Shown here piece by piece: positions 8,814 through 46,363 of a stretch of 64,000 nucleotides of DNA. The DNA comes from Pezizomycotina sp. ARF18. Lineage: Eukaryota; Ascomycota. The notes under the pieces are model-generated. The model made no database searches, was not told the DNA's origin, and was given only the letters and a program-made list of their open reading frames with translations. The position numbers were made by a program, and so were the translations under genes. The DNA lies in NCBI GenBank assembly GCA_002224055.1, contig AZLU01000051.1, positions 164,047 to 228,046 of the forward strand. The letters are read 5' to 3'. Position 1 is the first letter of the stretch, and every line of letters begins with the position of its first letter.

Positions 8814-9750
8814 GATTGAGGTTATAGGAGACCCTGTGAGCGGGCTTCTGGCTTGATGGCTATACAATATCTTAAAACTTTCTATGTTGGAGAATGAACT
8901 GGTTCTCACGGCTCGTCGTTTGATCTGCTATAAGGAACGTTATTAATTCGCGCAAGCTTTTGCAAATTAATTATATTATTCCATTCTTTGAATTTTCATT
9001 CCGTTAATGTAAATGTCGATGTTCGCGAGGCTCAAGGCTTTCACGGAACTTGAATCACGGGATATATGATTCAACTGACAGCATGTTTAGATTCAGCCGC
9101 CCATGGCAAATCGAGTAATTCTAACTTAATAAAATGCACGGAGCAGGGTTCCAAGGATGTTCAATATTTTCACTCAAATTCGTCTTCCCTAAATACATCA
9201 AGCTTCAATTTAGACTATCAGCTTGGGTCCAACCGAGAAGTTGGATATTCCCGCACATTTAGATTAGCGCTTGTTAAACAATCATGTTGGCTTCATTTTC
9301 GATTGTAAGGGGTTAGGCGTATCTAACCGTTAGCCCAAGTACTAACCGCGCGCATGATTAAATGAAGAGCTCAAAGCATCATTGATTAATGTAGAAGAAA
9401 GCTGATGTGAATATCCTTCAATTTCAATCCCTTGAATTGACACAGTAAACCTAAAGGTCGGTGAGGCCAGAATGCAGCATGTATTCGTATGGATCGTGTA
9501 AATGTCATTACAGCGCTGCCGATGATGAGAACCAAAGTTTGAATTACAAAATGTATCAATAGCTACAATGATAGTTGAAGATAAGACTAATAATAAGTAT
9601 AGAATGAAGTTGTCCTATGCAGAAATTTCGAAGGTAAAAGCAGAACAAAACAAGTTTAGAGGCAAGCAAATGAGATAGAACAATCAGCTGAAACAATACT
9701 ATTATCCTACAAGATTACCCTCCATATCACCCCGAAATCGTAATCTCATT
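8814..9750. other. Intergenic
   Basis: AT-rich sequence with an 80-residue plus-strand frame (9066-9308) of asparagine/serine-rich, low-complexity character and no motif. Nothing else was recognised. Confidence 0.4.
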
Positions 9751-10921
9751 TTAACCCGATACGTAACCGCGCACCCTCTCCATGAACATCGTCCTTCCTT
9801 TTATCAGCCACACGAAGAATGGCCATAACTTCCACCCGAATAGCGATCCGACACCGCTCTTTTTCCCGATAGGAACAACGATCATGTCGTAATTCCTAAC
9901 CTGCACCTTCTTTCCTTCACCCTTAACGGCCTTCGGAGCGACGAACTTCAGCCACGACTCCACGGCTACCGGAACGCCATCCAGAACACTAAAGAACGTC
10001 CGCGACGACATCGAGGGTATGTCACCGACCGCAAATACTCCGTCTCCAGCCGCCGTAACGCGCAGCTGATCATCTGTATTAACCCAACCCTTGTCGTCTT
10101 TAACGGTATCGGAAGGAAAGAGGAGTTGGGGTGTACGCCCGTCGCATCGATGTATAGATCCGCCTTTAGTACGTCACCGCTGGCTAAAGTGATGTTGTAC
10201 TGCTCCCCGACCTTTTCGACCTTCTCCACCCTCGCGTCCGTCTTAACTTTAATACCTGCAGCCTTCATCCTCGTCGCTGCGAGATCACCGAGAGCTTGAT
10301 CTTTGAGAGTGTGCAGCGGTCTGGGACCGGCCGTTACGAGCGTGACGTCCTTGACCTTAGCGCCCGTGAACCATGTCATGATCTCCCCGCTAGTTTCAAT
10401 CGAAACGGGACCGCCGCCCGCGATAACGATGCTAGAAGCGGCAACGATCTTCTCGTGCATATCCTGGAGAGCGGCGGTAGAAGCCTCCAGATCCTGCTCC
10501 GCATTCAGCTTCCACACGTTGCTCGAGTGATGACTGCCCGACGCGATGAAGAGACTGTCGTACTTAAGTCTTTGCTCCTTAGGCGCATCGGTAACGTCCT
10601 AGGAGTGAACTCTACGCTCTTGCCGGTAAAGTCACGGCTGTCGCAACGCCGTGGATGAAACGGAACTGCTCGGGCGGGTGCTTCGGGAAGTTTCTCTAAT
10701 GTCGACTTTGATTTTTTCTTGCGGAAATGCTCGGGCGAGACGACGGCGCGCACGGTGCCGACAGTGAACCAGAAGTGCGTGGAGGCGGAGAGCATGGTTA
10801 CGCGGTACTTGTTCTTCGTGATCTTCGCGGCTTTGGAGATTTGGGTCTTGAGGAGGGTGTGGGCCGTACCGAGCGCCGCGGCGCCTCCGCCAATTATAAG
10901 AATTTCGTGGGTGTTTGACAT
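9751..10921 (-). CDS. FAD-dependent oxidoreductase, AIF/AMID (FSP1)-like
   Basis: Pyridine-nucleotide-disulfide-type flavoprotein resembling AMID/FSP1-like proteins, which use NAD(P)H to reduce quinones or act in cell-death signalling; the exact role here is unknown. The start at 10921 gives MSNTHEILIIGGGAAALGTA, the FAD-binding GxGxxA Rossmann motif, about 10 residues in. Downstream are a substrate-loop region ending YDSLFIASGSHHSSNVW, the second Rossmann motif IVIAGGGPVSIETSGEI for NAD(P)H, VTAGPRPL, the ATG motif (YIDATGVHPNSSFLP), and the second FAD contact GDGVFAVGDIPS. The C-terminus ends in a hydrophobic segment WPFFVWLIKG, which may touch a membrane. No intron is needed and about 390 residues is the family length. 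At least four one-base shifts (about 10690, 10640, 10590 and 10115) interrupt it. Confidence 0.85.
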
Positions 10922-13134
10922 CTCGCGATCGAGTTCTGGTTGCACGGAACGGAGCGGGGGGAAGATAGTCAATATATCACGAAGGTAAATAGGCTGTAGG
11001 CGGTTGGTAGATGTTAATTTGCTCAATTGCTCTTTCGAATGTCGAGTCTAAAAACCTCTAACTCTCAATGCACGATACTGGATATCGGAGCAGAGGGAAG
11101 AAAATGTCCAGAAGCGAGGTATCGGCCAGCTATATATGTTCAGAACTCTAAAACAGAAATAGCCTCTGACCAAGCGCGTCATAGTATCTAGAAATTTCGA
11201 CGTCGCCATGTCTCCAAACACTAACACGCACAAAGCCGAAAAAGAAAACAAATCATACGATCTACTTGCTTTCACCGGATCTCCGAACGACAATCAGCCA
11301 CAAGGGGAAATCACCTAGCAATTACCGTGCTTTTTAATCAAAAGAAAAACGTAGGCGAACAAAAATCACTAGGTTGTTTCCAGCATCCAAGGATACGGGA
11401 GAGGCGAGGGCAGACTCAATTTTCAAACAATTTTTATGGCAAGGCGAAACGAATTCGTCCGAAGATGCTTCTACCGTAACGCTTGTTCTCAATCCATTGG
11501 CTCAAATGATGGCTAGTGGCGTATTTCGCGCGATAACACACGATAATTAGATCACGACAAAGCCAAGACTTCTAGAGCAGACAGTCTGCCAGGGGAGCTG
11601 TGAGCGGCAGATCACGTGCATTCTCGGGCGATACGAGGCCTGCTATTGTCAGCAAGATTTTGAAGGTCTCAAATTCTCTGAGGGGAAATGATGGGAAATA
11701 GGTTTAGATCGCTAATTAAAAAGCTTAAATTAAAACTCAAGTAGGGAAAGTGGGGCTCCGAAACCCACGGAGAATACCCAAAGTGCCGAAGTTCCGAAAC
11801 ACCGGTCACAATATCCCGGCGTCCTGAGCCTGTATTACATACTCGCTAGTATCCGTATTTCCTGCGATAGTGTTTCCAAACTTCGAAATAGGGATCTTAA
11901 AATTATAGGGACGTTAGATTGGATGTGACACAAGGAATTTTTGGGTGAAAAAAGCAATGGAAAGCTGCTTACAATAGCATTAGAAACCATAATTCGTCGC
12001 AACGGAGATTGTATTTTCTTGATTTGGACCGTTTAAACGCGATATACGGGCTGGGTTGGACCCTCGAGTATAGTTACTAATACAGAAACCTGAGTTCTAT
12101 ATTGACATCAACCTTTTGTCAACCTTGACGTGTTTCATCCGATCTATAAACACGGTGTACACTGATTTTTCCGTCCTATTCCTTATTACTGATGAGAGTA
12201 ACTAATAAAGGAAGCTTACCATTTCTTTGCGGAACCGAGCTTCACATGACGACGTAGCTGTTTCTAACGCTTCATTAATTAACACTTGATCGCTAAGTTA
12301 ATACCAGTGTTGCTCTATAGAAGCTTTACACTTCAGTCAATTGCATGGTGTACACGGGTCTATATAAGTATCATGCTGACGCTTGGGCAGCAGCAACTGT
12401 CATCATCAGAAACCAAACTATTTTTTAGTTCCTCATATCAGAGCTTGCTTTTTAATCCGATTTCAAGATTCCTAATAAAAGTCCAGATTGCTCCGCTGTA
12501 AATTTTTCAAGACGATGTGCGTATAGTAGATGATATTTAATATTTACAGGATATATCTCAGCCAAAAAAAAATATTAGGACTAGACATTAAACCAAACGA
12601 AACACATCATTGGCGTATAGGTATTAGTGGTAAGGTTGTTAGATTTTGGTTATGCCTTCACAAAGGGTAATATAACGAGCTTCGTACCTATAGATTTGCA
12701 CCAGATACTCGCGGATTTTTACTTTACAGTGTCATATAACCCTATAGATGGCTAGTGATTAAGATGTCTTCCAGTAAAATACACCGTGGGAGAACTCGGG
12801 CTAAAGTTTAGAATAAGTAAAGAATTCTAAGATCAAATAAATGACTCATTAATGAATTTTCGGAGCGATTGAAGAATAATACTTAATGATACCAAGTACT
12901 ATAGTCGCGACTTGAAGATAAAGCCACAGGGCAATCAATGATTTAATAAATAAAATAATGAATTAGAGTATTTAATCGTAACTAGAATAGGAATTATAGC
13001 TAAGCAGATAAGCAAGCACCTTGCTCCCTTATCCGGGCCGGGTCTCAGCTCAAGCCCGGCGTAAAGCGTGCAGCTCGACCTCACCTGAAAATATATTGTC
13101 AGCTTTCTCCCTTATCCTGCATCCAATTCTAGAA
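10922..13134. other. Intergenic, AT-rich
   Basis: About 2.2 kb with no supportable gene. It becomes more AT-rich toward 12500-13000, with dense stop codons in all frames. A short pyrimidine-poor GC patch lies around 13030-13080, just before the tRNA gene. Confidence 0.5.
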
Positions 13135-13295
13135 CCGATCTTAGCTCAGTTGGTAGAGCATCAGGTAAGCTTCAACAAATCTTCCTTTCCCAAAAATATT
13201 TCATGAGTCAATCAACTAATCAATTTCTCTCCAGACTGTAACTGTTCAATAAACAATATATCTGAGGGTCCCCAGTTCGAGTCTGGGAGGTCGGA
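13135..13295 (+). tRNA. tRNA-Tyr(GTA) with canonical intron plus a spliceosomal-type insert
   Basis: The folded gene has acceptor stem CCGATCT/AGGTCGG (13135-13141 and 13288-13294) with discriminator A at 13295. It has D-arm GCTC/GAGC, anticodon stem TCAGA/TCTGA, loop CTGTAA with anticodon GTA at 13238-13240, and T-arm CCCAG-TTCGAGT-CTGGG. A short intron (about 13242-13259, 18 nt) follows position 37, exactly where eukaryotic tRNA-Tyr introns sit and are cut by the tRNA endonuclease. A second insert, 13165-13234, splits the anticodon stem between positions 30 and 31. It starts GTAAGC, has a CTAAT branch-like motif at 13216-13220, and ends CTCCAG. Without both inserts the cloverleaf is perfect. 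The internal A and B boxes are intact and a long T run follows. Confidence 0.9.
13165..13234 (+). other. Spliceosomal-type intron-like insert inside tRNA-Tyr
   Basis: This 70-base insert carries all three signals of the mRNA introns seen elsewhere in this window: GTAAGC donor, CTAAT branch motif about 15 bases before the end, and a CTCCAG acceptor after a pyrimidine-rich stretch. It lies in CAG|A, a typical proto-splice site. It contains no T run of five or more, so RNA polymerase III should read through it. Confidence 0.75.
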
Positions 13296-13299
13296 CGTC

Positions 13300-13322
13300 T
13301 TTTTTTTTTTTTTTTTTTTTTT
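13300..13322 (+). terminator. RNA polymerase III T-run terminator of tRNA-Tyr
   Basis: An uninterrupted run of 23 T residues begins five bases after the discriminator base. That is the normal Pol III stop signal, although unusually long. Confidence 0.8.
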
Positions 13323-42646: not shown

Positions 42647-45600
42647 ATGACGGTCATGCAGGACGGTTCGAACAATCCTACAGCTGCGGAGGGCGGAACA
42701 GACGGCGGGAAAGCTGCGGAGCTGATCCCTGACGTTGTTCGAGGCGATGACCTCCGGAACGGCAAGTCGCAATCAGCTTCAGATTCGGAGCAGGGTAGCT
42801 CGAGGCGTGGTAGGTTGCAAAGCTCATCCTGTATATTCTAGACTACGATTCGAATACTAAATTCCCGATTGCCTATCGATGTAGAGAAAGGACAGATATC
42901 CGCTCATCTCCTGCGAGGAGCCCTAAACGCTATCGCTCAAGGTGCGCCGGACAGCGATTATGACCCGTTCGACAGCTCGTACGCAACCTCGAGAACGTCC
43001 AGGGAGTCTTCGGTCTTCGAGTTCAATTCCGAGAGGAGAGTCCGGAGCGGTATCGCGAACAGCGGGAAGAGGGATCTCAGAGATATACTAGACTGGCACG
43101 TTGACTCTTCGCCCACCGAGCAAGGGTTCCAAATTCCGGCAAAGCTAGTAACGACGATTCCGAGGAAACTGCAGATTTTGTAGACGGTACTGCGAGCGCT
43201 TCCAGCACGGATTCCCAAGCCACTTCTCGCAGACGTCGAATAGGCGATCGCATGCTGTGTCCGTCGCCAGCGAACGGCCGTCGAGGTCGAGACAACCTAC
43301 GCTTACTACCCATACGGCGCAGTCGCTTGGACGGAGTAGGGCTGGAAGCTTGACGAAACAACACGGCATTAGTTCCGGGCTTGAACGGCTTACTCCCTTG
43401 CCACGTCCGCACATCCCTATCGACAGGTCTACCTCGGCAAGCGTGATACGTCGGAGCAAGTCGACACCGAGGTATCCACGATCAGGGCAAAGGGACATCA
43501 TACTTTGCATTAGGAGCAGCAGCGGCACGCTGAAAAGCGAGAAGGAGCATCTGAAACAGCTGCAGAAGCAATATCAGCAGCTGCAACAGTATCAGCAACA
43601 ACAACAGAGACAGAAGCAACAGAGCAATGCGGCGACACCTCCTATGACCGCTCGACTGGCGTTTCTCAACCTGCAAGGGAAGGCCATGCTTCTAGAGAGG
43701 GACATTCATCAAAGGAAGCGCATGCCTCGAAAGAGGTCATTCCTCCAGAGATCACCATTCTCCGCGTGAAGCGCCACCGACAACATCCTTCTCATTCCAC
43801 GACTATCTTTACCTCTCCCTAGGCCCCACGCCCGCCTCGAAGCACGACCTCGCGTCGGCTGAATCCGCATCGAGCGGCTCACCAACTTCCTCTCCCTCCC
43901 CGCGTATCTCGAAGGCGCACTCTGGTTCGGCTGCTTCGCCTGCCTCGACGGGTGGCTCTGGTATTTTACTATCCTGCCCATGCGCTTCATCGGCGCGCTC
44001 TGGGTGCTGGTCATATACTGGATGCGCTGGCTCGGCGAGCAAGGGCCAACTACGCGAAATCGTGGCTTCGTCCGGAGAGTTCATCCGCCGCCGAATCCCG
44101 CCGCGGCAGTAGCAGCGAAGCGGATAAATCCTCCGACAACAAGAAGCAGCGGCTCGCGTCGTCGTCGGGCCGTACTTCCAGGCGGCGTAAAACGTCCGAC
44201 CTGCTTCCAAGCCACAAGGCGGACCTTCTAAAGGGCGCGGTCGTGTTCTGCTCCTGTTGGGTCCTAATGAGCTTCGACGCTAGTAGGATGTACCACGGCA
44301 TACGCGGGCAGAACGCTATAAAGCTCTACGTCATATCAACGTGCTCGACGTCACGGACAGGCTGTGCTCGGCCCTCGGGCAGGATATATTCGAGTGCTTG
44401 TTCTCGCGCGAGTCACTAGAAAGACGCCCGGACGGTACTAGCAAGATCATCCGGCCATTCGCCTTCTTCCTCCTCTCGCTCGTGTATAACGTGCTGCATT
44501 CAACGGCGCTATTCTACCAGGTCATAACGCTTAATGTTGCTGTGAACAGCTATTCTAATGCGCTTCTGACGCTCTTGCTATCTAATCAATTCGTAGAGAT
44601 CAAATCAACCGTCTTCAAGAAGTTTGAGAAGGAGAACCTCTTTCAGATGACGTGCGCAGATATCGTGGAGCGGTTCCAGCTATGGCTTATGCTCCTTATA
44701 ATCGCCAGTCGGAATCTAGTAGAGGTTGGCCTAGACGGGTTTCTCGGCGTTGGAGGCTTCGGCTTGTCAGGACTAGTAACTTCTGGTATCAGCCTAACTT
44801 TAGGCCACGACAACCCTCGACTACGTCAAACGCATCGAAAGCCAGTAGCAGCGGTGGCATGATACTACCAAAGAGCTTTACTATCTTCCCCAAGTGGACC
44901 GGCCAGGTCATGGGTCCGTTCCTGCTAGTTCTAGGCAGCGAAATGCTAGTAGACTGGATCAAGCACGCCTACATATCGAAATTCAACAATGTGAAACCGC
45001 AGATATACTCGAGATTTTTGGACGTTCTGGCGAAGGACTATTACACGAATGTAAGAAAAAGTATTCTATCCACCTCGGTATTTAGCTGACATGTATCGCT
45101 CCAGGCATTCGTGGAAGAAAACCTGACTAAGCGTCTCGGCCTTCCCGTCATCCCACTATCTTGCCTATTCATCCGCGCCTCGCTGCAAACATACCAAATG
45201 TTCATAGCGACGTACGCGCCAGCGTATCCGCTCCCATCCGCCACGACCTCGCTTAGTGAACACACTAGCTCCTCTCCGCCACAACCGCTGCCTTGAACCG
45301 CTTCGACCGCGTCCTCCGTGCATTCTCCTCCGATACCGCATCTTCCTCTCCCTCTGGTTCCTTTCTCTCTTCTCATCTCGCGTCAACTCTGACGATGGTG
45401 TTCTTCTTCTTCGCCGCCTGGTTGGTGTTGCTTGCTATCAAGCTCGTGCTGGGTATCGCACTTCTGGGCTTTAGCAGGAGGCGGTATAAGGGCATGAAGG
45501 AGCGCGAGAAGGCGAACTACGATAGCAGCGGTAGGCGTGTTGGGGTTGGGGCACTGTTGAGATTGACGACGATCGGAGAAGTGGATTTTCATGGGGATAA

Positions 45601-45759
45601 GGAGGGCGAACGCGCTGCGAGGGAGAGGATAGGGCGCCGCCGAAGGATATGGCGGGTTGCCAAACGTTACAAGGTATGTGAGCCGCTTTGCGCAATGGGA
45701 AATTTAAGAGAGTTAACAGTGAAAATAGATATGCTATGGTCGCGAAGAGAATCTGGTGA
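42647..45759 (+). CDS. TAPT1/EMP65 family ER membrane protein
   Basis: Polytopic membrane protein. Yeast Emp65 works with the SUN-domain-like Slp1 to protect newly folded proteins in the ER, and human TAPT1 is the orthologue. The start at 42647 (MTVMQDGSNNP) opens a long low-complexity N-terminal region with an intron about 42831-42884, Ser/Arg-rich stretches and a poly-Gln segment (QLQKQYQQLQQYQQQQQ near 43560-43610). The membrane domain is clear: RIERLTNFLSLPAYLEGALW, FGCFACLDGWLWYFTILPMR, FIGALWVLVIYWM, KADLLKGAVVFCSCW, IKLYVI and VLDVTDRLCSALGQDI, FFLLSLVYNVLHSTALFYQV, SNQFVEIKSTVFKKFEKENL, FQMTCADIVERFQLWLMLLI, PKSFTIFPKWTGQVMG, LGSEMLVDWIKHAYISKFNN, and after an intron near 45053-45104 AFVEENLTKRLGLPVIPLSC. 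The last exon ends YAMVAKRIW, stop 45757-45759. Several one-base shifts occur. It is divergent from the DNA methyltransferase gene. Confidence 0.88.
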
Positions 45760-46363
45760 AGATGCAGGGTATAACTAAGATATTCAGACAATTTGGAAGG
45801 TTAGGTTTACATAGAGTTGTTTTGTATGGATATTTTTATCTTCTCTCATGCATATATGGCGTTTATTAATCTGTTGTTTCGATTCTATATTTAAGCTCGA
45901 TGTTCTCTGGATCTTAGGATTGCATGTATTTCGAACAAATTGTTTTGACTTACCAATACCGCCAACGAGAACTTGCGCTGCCTATTCGTGAGTAATTACT
46001 AAATTAGCGATTGTTTGACTCTCCTGTATTATTCTTGTTTTCCAAACACCTCCAGAGCTTTGGCCGTGATATAGCCGAGCCAATCAATGTCATGCCCGAT
46101 TGAGACGAGGCTGAACCGCGATGTTATTCGATCCTACAGCCTTGTAAATATTCTCCATGAAACCGAGTGCAATAGGGATTAGTCTTTTTTCGGCCAACTT
46201 CTTATCTTTTGGATAGTGAGTATATTTTGCATTCAATTGATCAAGGGATCCTTTTCATTCTGAAAAACCTGGTATAACAATTTAAAAAAAAAAAAACCGA
46301 CCACCTGGGCGATCGGGCTGATATGCAGATAATTTCGAGATCCTACGGTTAGTTATCACAACA
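45760..46363. other. Intergenic
   Basis: About 600 bases between convergently unrelated plus-strand genes. It has an A run near 46281-46292 and no gene. Confidence 0.5.

Follow-up and report, generated by a model that had tools for sequence, protein, structure and literature searches.

Spliceosomal-type introns in a split tRNA-Tyr gene and in other nuclear tRNA genes of Pezizomycotina sp. ARF18

The window analysed here, a stretch of 64,000 nt (G000:C51:164047-228046) from the 46.4-Mb, 408-contig assembly of Pezizomycotina sp. ARF18, contains a tRNA-Tyr(GTA) gene that is divided into three exons by two inserts of different kinds. The gene and its flanking elements are as follows, with the basis of each assignment in brackets.

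13091..13097, + strand: A/T-rich, TATA-like motif ATATATT, 38-44 nt upstream of the tRNA-Tyr gene, role putative (read from sequence)
13135-13295, + strand: tRNA-Tyr(GTA) gene, whole (read from sequence)
13135..13164, + strand: exon 1, tRNA positions 1-30 (sequence, stem pairing)
13165..13234, + strand: 70-nt spliceosomal-type intron at 30|31 (sequence, motif counts, motif-blind removal scan, paralogs)
13165-13170, + strand: 5′ splice site of this intron, GTAAGC (sequence)
13216-13220, + strand: branch motif of this intron, CTAAT (sequence)
13232-13234, + strand: 3′ end of this intron, CAG (sequence)
13235..13241, + strand: exon 2, positions 31-37, with the anticodon GTA at 13238-13240 (sequence, ARAGORN)
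13242..13259, + strand: canonical 18-nt tRNA intron at 37/38 (ARAGORN on the joined sequence: tRNA-Tyr (gta)i(38,18))
13260..13295, + strand: exon 3, positions 38-73 (sequence, stem pairing)
13274-13284, + strand: B box in the T arm of exon 3 (sequence, stem pairing)
13300..13322, + strand: T23 run, Pol III terminator-like (sequence)

Exon 1 comprises the 5′ strand of the acceptor stem, the D arm, the A box and nucleotides 1-4 of the anticodon stem, reading CCGATCT TA GCTC AGTTGGTA GAGC A TCAG up to the insert, which runs from GTAAGC to ATCAACTAATCAATTTCTCTCCAG. Behind the insert the gene continues with A CTGTAA, the 18-nt intron, A TCTGA GGGT, CCCAG TTCGAGT CTGGG and AGGTCGG A, exon 3 supplying the 3′ strand of the anticodon stem, the T arm, the 3′ strand of the acceptor stem and A73. 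Pairing is complete in the acceptor stem (7/7) and the T-stem (5/5), and both the A box and the B box are whole. The predicted branch adenosine lies 15 nt upstream of the 3′ splice site, and the longest T run within the 70-nt intron is three. The GTAAGC, CTAAT and CAG signals that a preliminary description of this DNA had assigned to an insert at 13165-13234, position 30|31, are found there directly in the sequence. CAG is likewise present at both ends of the insert, as had been remarked; its reading as a target-site duplication is, however, not required, the intron of a paralogous gene described below ending in TTAG.

With default settings, ARAGORN identified no tRNA gene within the window on the unspliced DNA, the Rfam tRNA model gave no match to the unspliced window at the gathering threshold, and the four weak Rfam matches to the unspliced gene at E-values up to 10 included no tRNA. 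When introns were allowed, ARAGORN called the unspliced gene as tRNA-Thr(tgt) with a 70-nt intron, and the gene from which the 70-nt insert had been removed as tRNA-Tyr(gta) with an 18-nt intron. In a motif-blind scan, applied to all split genes reported here, every removal of 40-100 nt was scored; among the 5611 possible removals from the window gene, the originally proposed product scores top and can be reached by four equivalent registers, one of which is GT..AG. The minimum-free-energy fold of the joined precursor, with the 18-nt intron kept, is a full cloverleaf with all four stems, which accounts for 9.6% of the ensemble, the centroid being without the T stem; the best fold of the joined 73-mer, with both introns out, is not a cloverleaf. 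The earlier claim that a cloverleaf emerges upon removal of two inserts, of 70 nt and 18 nt, is accordingly confirmed by the sequence, ARAGORN, the precursor fold and the motif-blind scan. The fold predicted for the unspliced 161-nt sequence is without an anticodon stem, consistent with the earlier suggestion that this stem would be absent before the 70-nt insert is removed.

Three tRNA-Tyr genes were found in the assembly, on contigs C51 (the window gene), C219 and C163, and all are split; genes are designated below by isotype and contig. The C219 gene has an intron at the same position as the window gene (TCAG|GTAAGCTC...CAACTAACGCCACCATTAG|ACTGTAA), although the intron sequence has diverged, while the C163 gene has no intron at 30|31, TCAGACTGTAA being contiguous. 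The C163 gene is interrupted between positions 6 and 7 (CCGACC|GTGAGT...CAAAG|TTAGCTC) and by a second intron in the T loop at 57|58 (GGTTCG|GTAAGA...CTAACAGCTTCATCAG|AATCC). Since the introns of C51 and C219 lie at other positions than those of C163, each gene provides an empty site for the other: C163 agrees with C51 at 23/24 nt and with C219 at 21/24 nt across the former site, and across its own two sites with C219 at 18/18 and 24/24 nt and with C51 at 17/18 and 20/24 nt. A genome search for an uninterrupted tRNA-Tyr 5′ half with up to three mismatches returned C163 alone, itself split elsewhere. No further tRNA-Tyr appeared among the places read from an A-box search (25 matches, 10 of them on contig C50) or from a B-box plus poly-T search (69 matches, read in part); both would miss a gene whose A box is divergent and whose B box is split, and a DNA query with the joined tRNA-Tyr missed the C219 gene, so that DNA queries are not exhaustive. 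An intact tRNA-Tyr gene unseen by these searches is conceivable. Contig C50 (G000:C50, 231,088 bases) holds many tRNA copies and what we take to be GIY-YIG-like reading frames; it is presumably mitochondrial, and large for a fungal mitochondrial genome.

The spliceosomal-type reading of the window insert is supported and extends to 21 nuclear tRNA genes, of 12 isotypes and on 19 contigs, that are split by a total of 25 GT-AG inserts, with one or two in each gene and a tRNA emerging only after their removal. The set consists of Tyr (three genes), Arg-ACG (two), Lys-CTT (two), Ile-AAT, Thr-AGT, Ser-AGA (two), Val-TAC, Leu-AAG (two), Leu-CAA, Pro-AGG (two), Glu-CTC, Glu-TTC, Trp-CCA and His-GTG. 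There are 14 insertion sites, those of the 5′ half of the tRNA being numbered by hand: 6|7, 7|8, 9|10 (two), 15|16 (two), 17|18, 18|19, 28|29, 30|31 (two), 31|32 (three), 52|53 (five), 53|54, 57|58, 59|60 (two) and 66|67 (two). Sixteen of the 21 split genes, the window gene included, also contain the 37/38 intron (by ARAGORN; by eye in Tyr C163). Copies without a spliceosomal-type insert occur for some isotypes (Trp C177, Ile C29, Thr C30, Glu C23 and Glu C2:635k).

These genes belong to 86 nuclear regions compared, which were assembled from A-box, B-box and poly-T patterns, the Rfam tRNA model and DNA queries, and from which chance-looking A-box matches and a tRNA pair on C257 (L023 and L024; AT-rich and mitochondrial-looking) were excluded. 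Of the remaining 65 regions, 35 have an ARAGORN call without joining, some with the wrong isotype, and 30 do not, a few of the latter resembling intact or damaged tRNAs on inspection. Twelve of the 21 split genes were first found without the poly-T pattern and nine through it (Glu C72 also by a partial Rfam match). The first A-box pattern gave 18 matches against 22 in a reversed control, mostly chance, and still yielded Ile C12, Ile C29 and two Asn genes; a concatenated tRNA query returned only 6 places. With introns allowed, ARAGORN called all of the joined genes (21/21), 18 of them with the assigned isotype and Ile with another anticodon, as opposed to 8/21 of the unjoined genes, none with the assigned isotype; without introns allowed, the calls fell to 10/21 joined and 0/21 unjoined. 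The genome search with the Rfam tRNA model matched four split genes (Arg C2, Arg C266, Lys C370 and part of Glu C72), but scored 63 of 1606 candidates, so absence from it means little. In the 18 joined genes tested for stem pairing (Arg C266, Ser C12 and Lys C193 being excluded), the acceptor stem pairs at 7/7 in 17 and 6/7 in Trp C34, and the T-stem at 5/5 in 16, with 4/5 in Glu C2 and 1/5 in Thr C125, both of which have a 1-nt lesion.

In their splicing signals the 25 inserts form a consistent group. GT-AG borders are present in 25/25, with 1-5 equivalent registers each; as the genes were found partly by eye with GT-AG in mind, this is not an unbiased count, and the product of registers/256, 10^-52, is a chance bound only and not a fair p-value. 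The inserts are 58-76 nt long (mean 67), and CTAA[CT] occurs in 23 of them compared to 6.1 expected in shuffles, two being without it. In all but one gene, 10-20 nt separate the second A of the last CTAA[CT] from the 3′ splice site; in the exception the distance is 3 nt and another CTAAC lies 11 nt before the intron end. At the 5′ splice site, A is found at +3 in 21/25, G at +5 in 18/25 and T at +6 in 19/25. For comparison, 18 mRNA introns were taken from six protein genes, five PF00118 genes and the TAPT1-like gene of the window, and set by reading frame; this is a small, author-chosen set that uses five of eight PF00118 regions and skips the unclear cases of L151. These introns, of 54-127 nt, have A+3 in 15, G+5 in 15, T+6 in 12 and CTAA[CT] in 13, with the same GTAAGT-type 5′ site as the tRNA set. 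The tRNA inserts thus resemble the mRNA introns of their host in 5′ splice site, branch motif and length. Exons end in G at the 5′ splice site in 13/25 cases, and in AG in 8, a mild proto-splice preference.

Scored without regard to motifs, the GT-AG product takes first place, alone or shared, for 17 of the 25 introns: 13 in the initial scan, and 4 more once the ends of two Pro genes and of Trp had been corrected. Three D-loop introns are outscored by three or four other removals, the margin being 2 points at most, and another five introns belong to genes bearing a 1-nt lesion. This lesion coincides with the junction in Arg C266 and Ser C12; the best-scoring removal there, which restores the whole tRNA, has no GT-AG register, and the GT-AG removal yields a tRNA 1 nt short.

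Empty sites are also available outside the Tyr genes. Trp C34 agrees with C177 at 23/24 nt, the site of the second Pro C8 intron with C37 at 22/24, Thr at 19/21 and Ile at 20/24. The scores are low for the first Pro C8 intron (14/24), Pro C37 (18/24) and Leu C87 (16/19), as the gene serving for comparison has an intron of its own adjoining the site; here the uninterrupted stretches were matched by eye.

One explanation for the split genes is that they are pseudogenes, extra copies killed by the inserts while intact copies do the work. The insert-free copies of some isotypes are in keeping with this, as are 1-nt lesions in five of the 21 split genes (Arg C266, Ser C12, Glu C2, Lys C193 and Thr C125). 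However, similar 1-nt breaks, seen as frame breaks and stops inside PF00118 matches, affect protein genes of this assembly, so the tRNA lesions may be sequence errors; some split copies may have decayed. Overall the explanation is improbable, given that every tRNA-Tyr gene found is split, that GT-AG is kept in 25/25 inserts and that paralogous exons keep an identity of 84-99% around introns that drift, in four of five pairs. Identity between same-site paralogs is 66% in the intron and 84% in the exons for Tyr, 64 and 99% for Arg, 57 and 96% for Ser and 56 and 89% for Leu, exon figures including the 37/38 intron where present; between unrelated sequences, gapped identity is itself about half. 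Exons are therefore conserved and introns drift at four of the five shared sites, the fifth, that of the Lys pair (92 and 98%), being uninformative. Compensatory stem changes, moreover, span the introns: five between Ile C12 and the unsplit C29, two for Pro, one for Tyr, and three for Glu, where one pair is broken.

Against the pseudogene explanation stands also the rarity in the introns of runs of four or more T, which can stop Pol III. Such runs are found in 2/25 tRNA introns, as opposed to 6.8 in shuffles and to 9/18 mRNA introns (one-sided Fisher p=0.003), a scarcity that fits Pol III transcription; for runs of five or more, the difference (1/25 versus 3/18 mRNA introns) is not significant. 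A run of at least six T starts within 22 nt past the gene end in 21/21 split genes, nine of which were found via the poly-T pattern. TATA-like motifs at -30 to -81 were detected in 8/21 using a simple regex (TATAWA, TATATA, TTATAA or TATAAT), which leaves ATATATT of the window gene outside the count, some loci having short upstream sequence. In several genes the intron cuts the A-box or B-box region, raising the question of how TFIIIC binds. Elsewhere in the window, an AIF-like oxidoreductase gene (9501-11100, - strand) and a gene that is presumably TAPT1-like (43701-46000, + strand) are broken by 1-nt frame shifts where no intron intervenes, which points to a noisy long-read assembly.

A recent spread of an introner-like transposable element into tRNA genes could account for inserts in many genes and at many sites, with a mean of 67 nt and a narrow length range. 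Such a spread is nonetheless very unlikely: a genome-wide search with the window insert returned one match, the insert itself, and in an all-against-all comparison of the 25 introns only the Lys pair is alike (E 3e-24), whereas the other intron-intron matches, with E of at least 0.017, extend over 10-24 nt and in several cases cover the branch and 3′ splice site. No family of near-identical copies at many sites was thus seen, the window insert being compared with the genome and the other 24 introns only among themselves, and this absence of related introns argues against recent element spread. An old introner spread with decayed copies is possible. The preliminary description had allowed for the window gene being a defunct copy into which an introner-like element had inserted; the uniqueness of the insert, the single paralogous intron pair that is alike, the splitting of all tRNA-Tyr genes and the conservation of exons disfavour this.

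It was also considered whether the inserts are cut by the tRNA endonuclease, as are the non-canonical introns of archaea, nucleomorphs and Cyanidioschyzon. This route is known for non-canonical positions, including 30/31 in archaea, according to the relevant sections of PMC4090602, which describe archaeal tRNA introns away from 37/38, located in the D, anticodon and T arms and in some archaea numbering several in one gene, as well as introns of 3-24 nt in nucleomorph tRNA genes of Guillardia; part of PMC3978253 gives 34 of the 43 nuclear tRNA genes of Cyanidioschyzon as disrupted. The genes reported here share with these systems introns off 37/38 but differ in intron kind, theirs being described in those passages as BHB/endonuclease type; the main text of PMC4090602 contains no instance of the word stem spliceosom. 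A 4-bp central helix of BHB type is possible at 2/25 junctions, compared to 0.65 expected by shuffling, and the other 23 are without one, the central helix being the element tested, so BHB/TSEN processing of the 25 inserts is not supported. GT, CTAA[CT] and AG with mRNA-like spacing play no role in that route, and the anticodon stem is missing from the predicted fold of the unspliced Tyr precursor; endonuclease cutting of these inserts is consequently highly improbable. Assembly artefact or contamination is vanishingly unlikely, for although the assembly is noisy at the 1-nt level, indel noise makes no introns, and the 21 genes, spread over 19 contigs, hold different 58-76-nt inserts that bear splice motifs.

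Spliceosomal introns outside mRNA genes have precedents in fungi. Introns of mRNA type are found in fungal U6 snRNA and U3 snoRNA genes, U6 being a Pol III gene, as stated in a section of a 2017 paper (PMC5832005) with reference to Tani and Ohshima 1989 and Canzler et al. 2016; according to that paper, no small structured RNAs other than U3 and U6 are known to be often interrupted by introns. The present case is similar in placing mRNA-type introns within small structured RNA genes, but differs in that the hosts are tRNA genes belonging to 12 isotypes; each has one or two introns of this type, and 16/21 have a 37/38 intron besides. In the rDNA of lichen-forming ascomycetes, ectopic spliceosomal introns with mRNA-like signals, of 57 bp in the tested case, are described in part of PMC8527467. 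Both hosts are ascomycetes. Among protein matches of the present genome, those bearing an organism name come nearly all from ascomycetes; in one search the best was Chaenotheca gracillima at 33% identity, and one weak match was to a Mucoromycete. Both cases involve a short intron, and the spliceosome, which acts on a non-Pol II transcript in the rDNA case, would do so in the tRNA genes too; however, rRNA is a Pol I product and rDNA needs no second, tRNA-specific splicing machine, in contrast to Pol III-transcribed tRNA. Canonical fungal 37/38 introns are removed by protein enzymes and not the spliceosome, according to a passage of a 2026 review (PMC13149111), and, unlike in ordinary fungal tRNA splicing, they coexist here with a second intron kind. 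The portion of a survey of many intron kinds (PMC11782384) that touches on tRNA introns mentions them solely as archaeal-type, and the literature searched, with preprints and most subscription journals outside its coverage, contained no report of spliceosomal introns in tRNA genes. The intron type would therefore be a known one, while its host genes appear to be new and unexpected, and the scale genome-wide.

The split-gene anatomy, the empty sites in paralogs, the conserved exons with freer introns and the likeness of motifs to mRNA introns are direct observations on the DNA. On these grounds the window tRNA-Tyr gene very probably belongs to a set of nuclear tRNA genes across the genome that gained spliceosomal introns at positions throughout the tRNA, with processing, as the preliminary description had proposed for this gene, by two machines, the spliceosome and then TSEN with ligase. 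Pol III would make a single precursor holding both intron kinds, as the terminators and the few T runs suggest, and the nuclear spliceosome, to judge from the mRNA-like signals, would remove the 58-76-nt intron. The tRNA could then fold, RNase P and RNase Z would finish its ends, and TSEN plus ligase would handle the 37/38 intron. For Tyr, the spliceosome should act before TSEN, because TSEN needs a folded tRNA body and the anticodon stem is predicted to be absent before splicing; in yeasts TSEN is located outside the nucleus, which would impose this order as well. The introns may, by analogy with U6 and rDNA, have been gained by reverse splicing into tRNA, probably followed by reverse transcription and recombination, repeatedly and at about 14 positions; insertion reportedly occurred multiple times, as the title of Canzler et al. 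2016 has it. With many tRNA genes split, among them every tRNA-Tyr gene found, the spliceosome would probably be an obligatory step of cytosolic tRNA supply in this lineage, such that spliceosome activity could limit translation through tRNA.

If the split genes are expressed, the spliceosome would routinely handle Pol III tRNA precursors, and two splicing machines would act in a forced order on one RNA; making split tRNAs should need the spliceosome besides the ordinary tRNA-splicing enzymes. The 25 insertions in tiny, conserved genes, several of them with empty sites in the same genome, render intron gain by reverse splicing directly testable. Given that ARAGORN correctly identified 0/21 of the unjoined genes and Rfam matched 4/21, other genomes may hide such genes.

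The number of 21 is a lower bound, and more split tRNA genes likely exist in this assembly, because L103 (C3:405k), L141 (C183:57k) and L143 (C213:53k) are probable tRNA 3′ ends that follow CTAAC..CAG-type 3′ splice sites and whose 5′ exons could not be placed. Additional copies of a tRNA 3′ end lie directly behind the gene at L121 (C37:136.9k) and L027 (C16:228k), and the 37/38 intron of Val C118 contains a T-arm-like stretch. Of the 35 regions that ARAGORN calls and that have no spliceosomal insert, 25 have an anticodon-loop intron, a share that seems high for a fungus. Three similar Pol III-like loci, L110 (C9:212k), L111 (C9:228k) and L133 (C119:11k), have an upstream TATA, poly-T and the common core GGTTACGGC..CCT..GGAC..GGTTCGAYTCTCGGG, with no Rfam match up to E 0.5. 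L119, L124, L128 and L147 (C34, C39) are tRNA-like loci with inserts of roughly 100-180 nt, and Rfam, run on 18 odd loci, gave one weak lncRNA match and tRNA for L134 and L147, the match in L147 spanning 181 nt.
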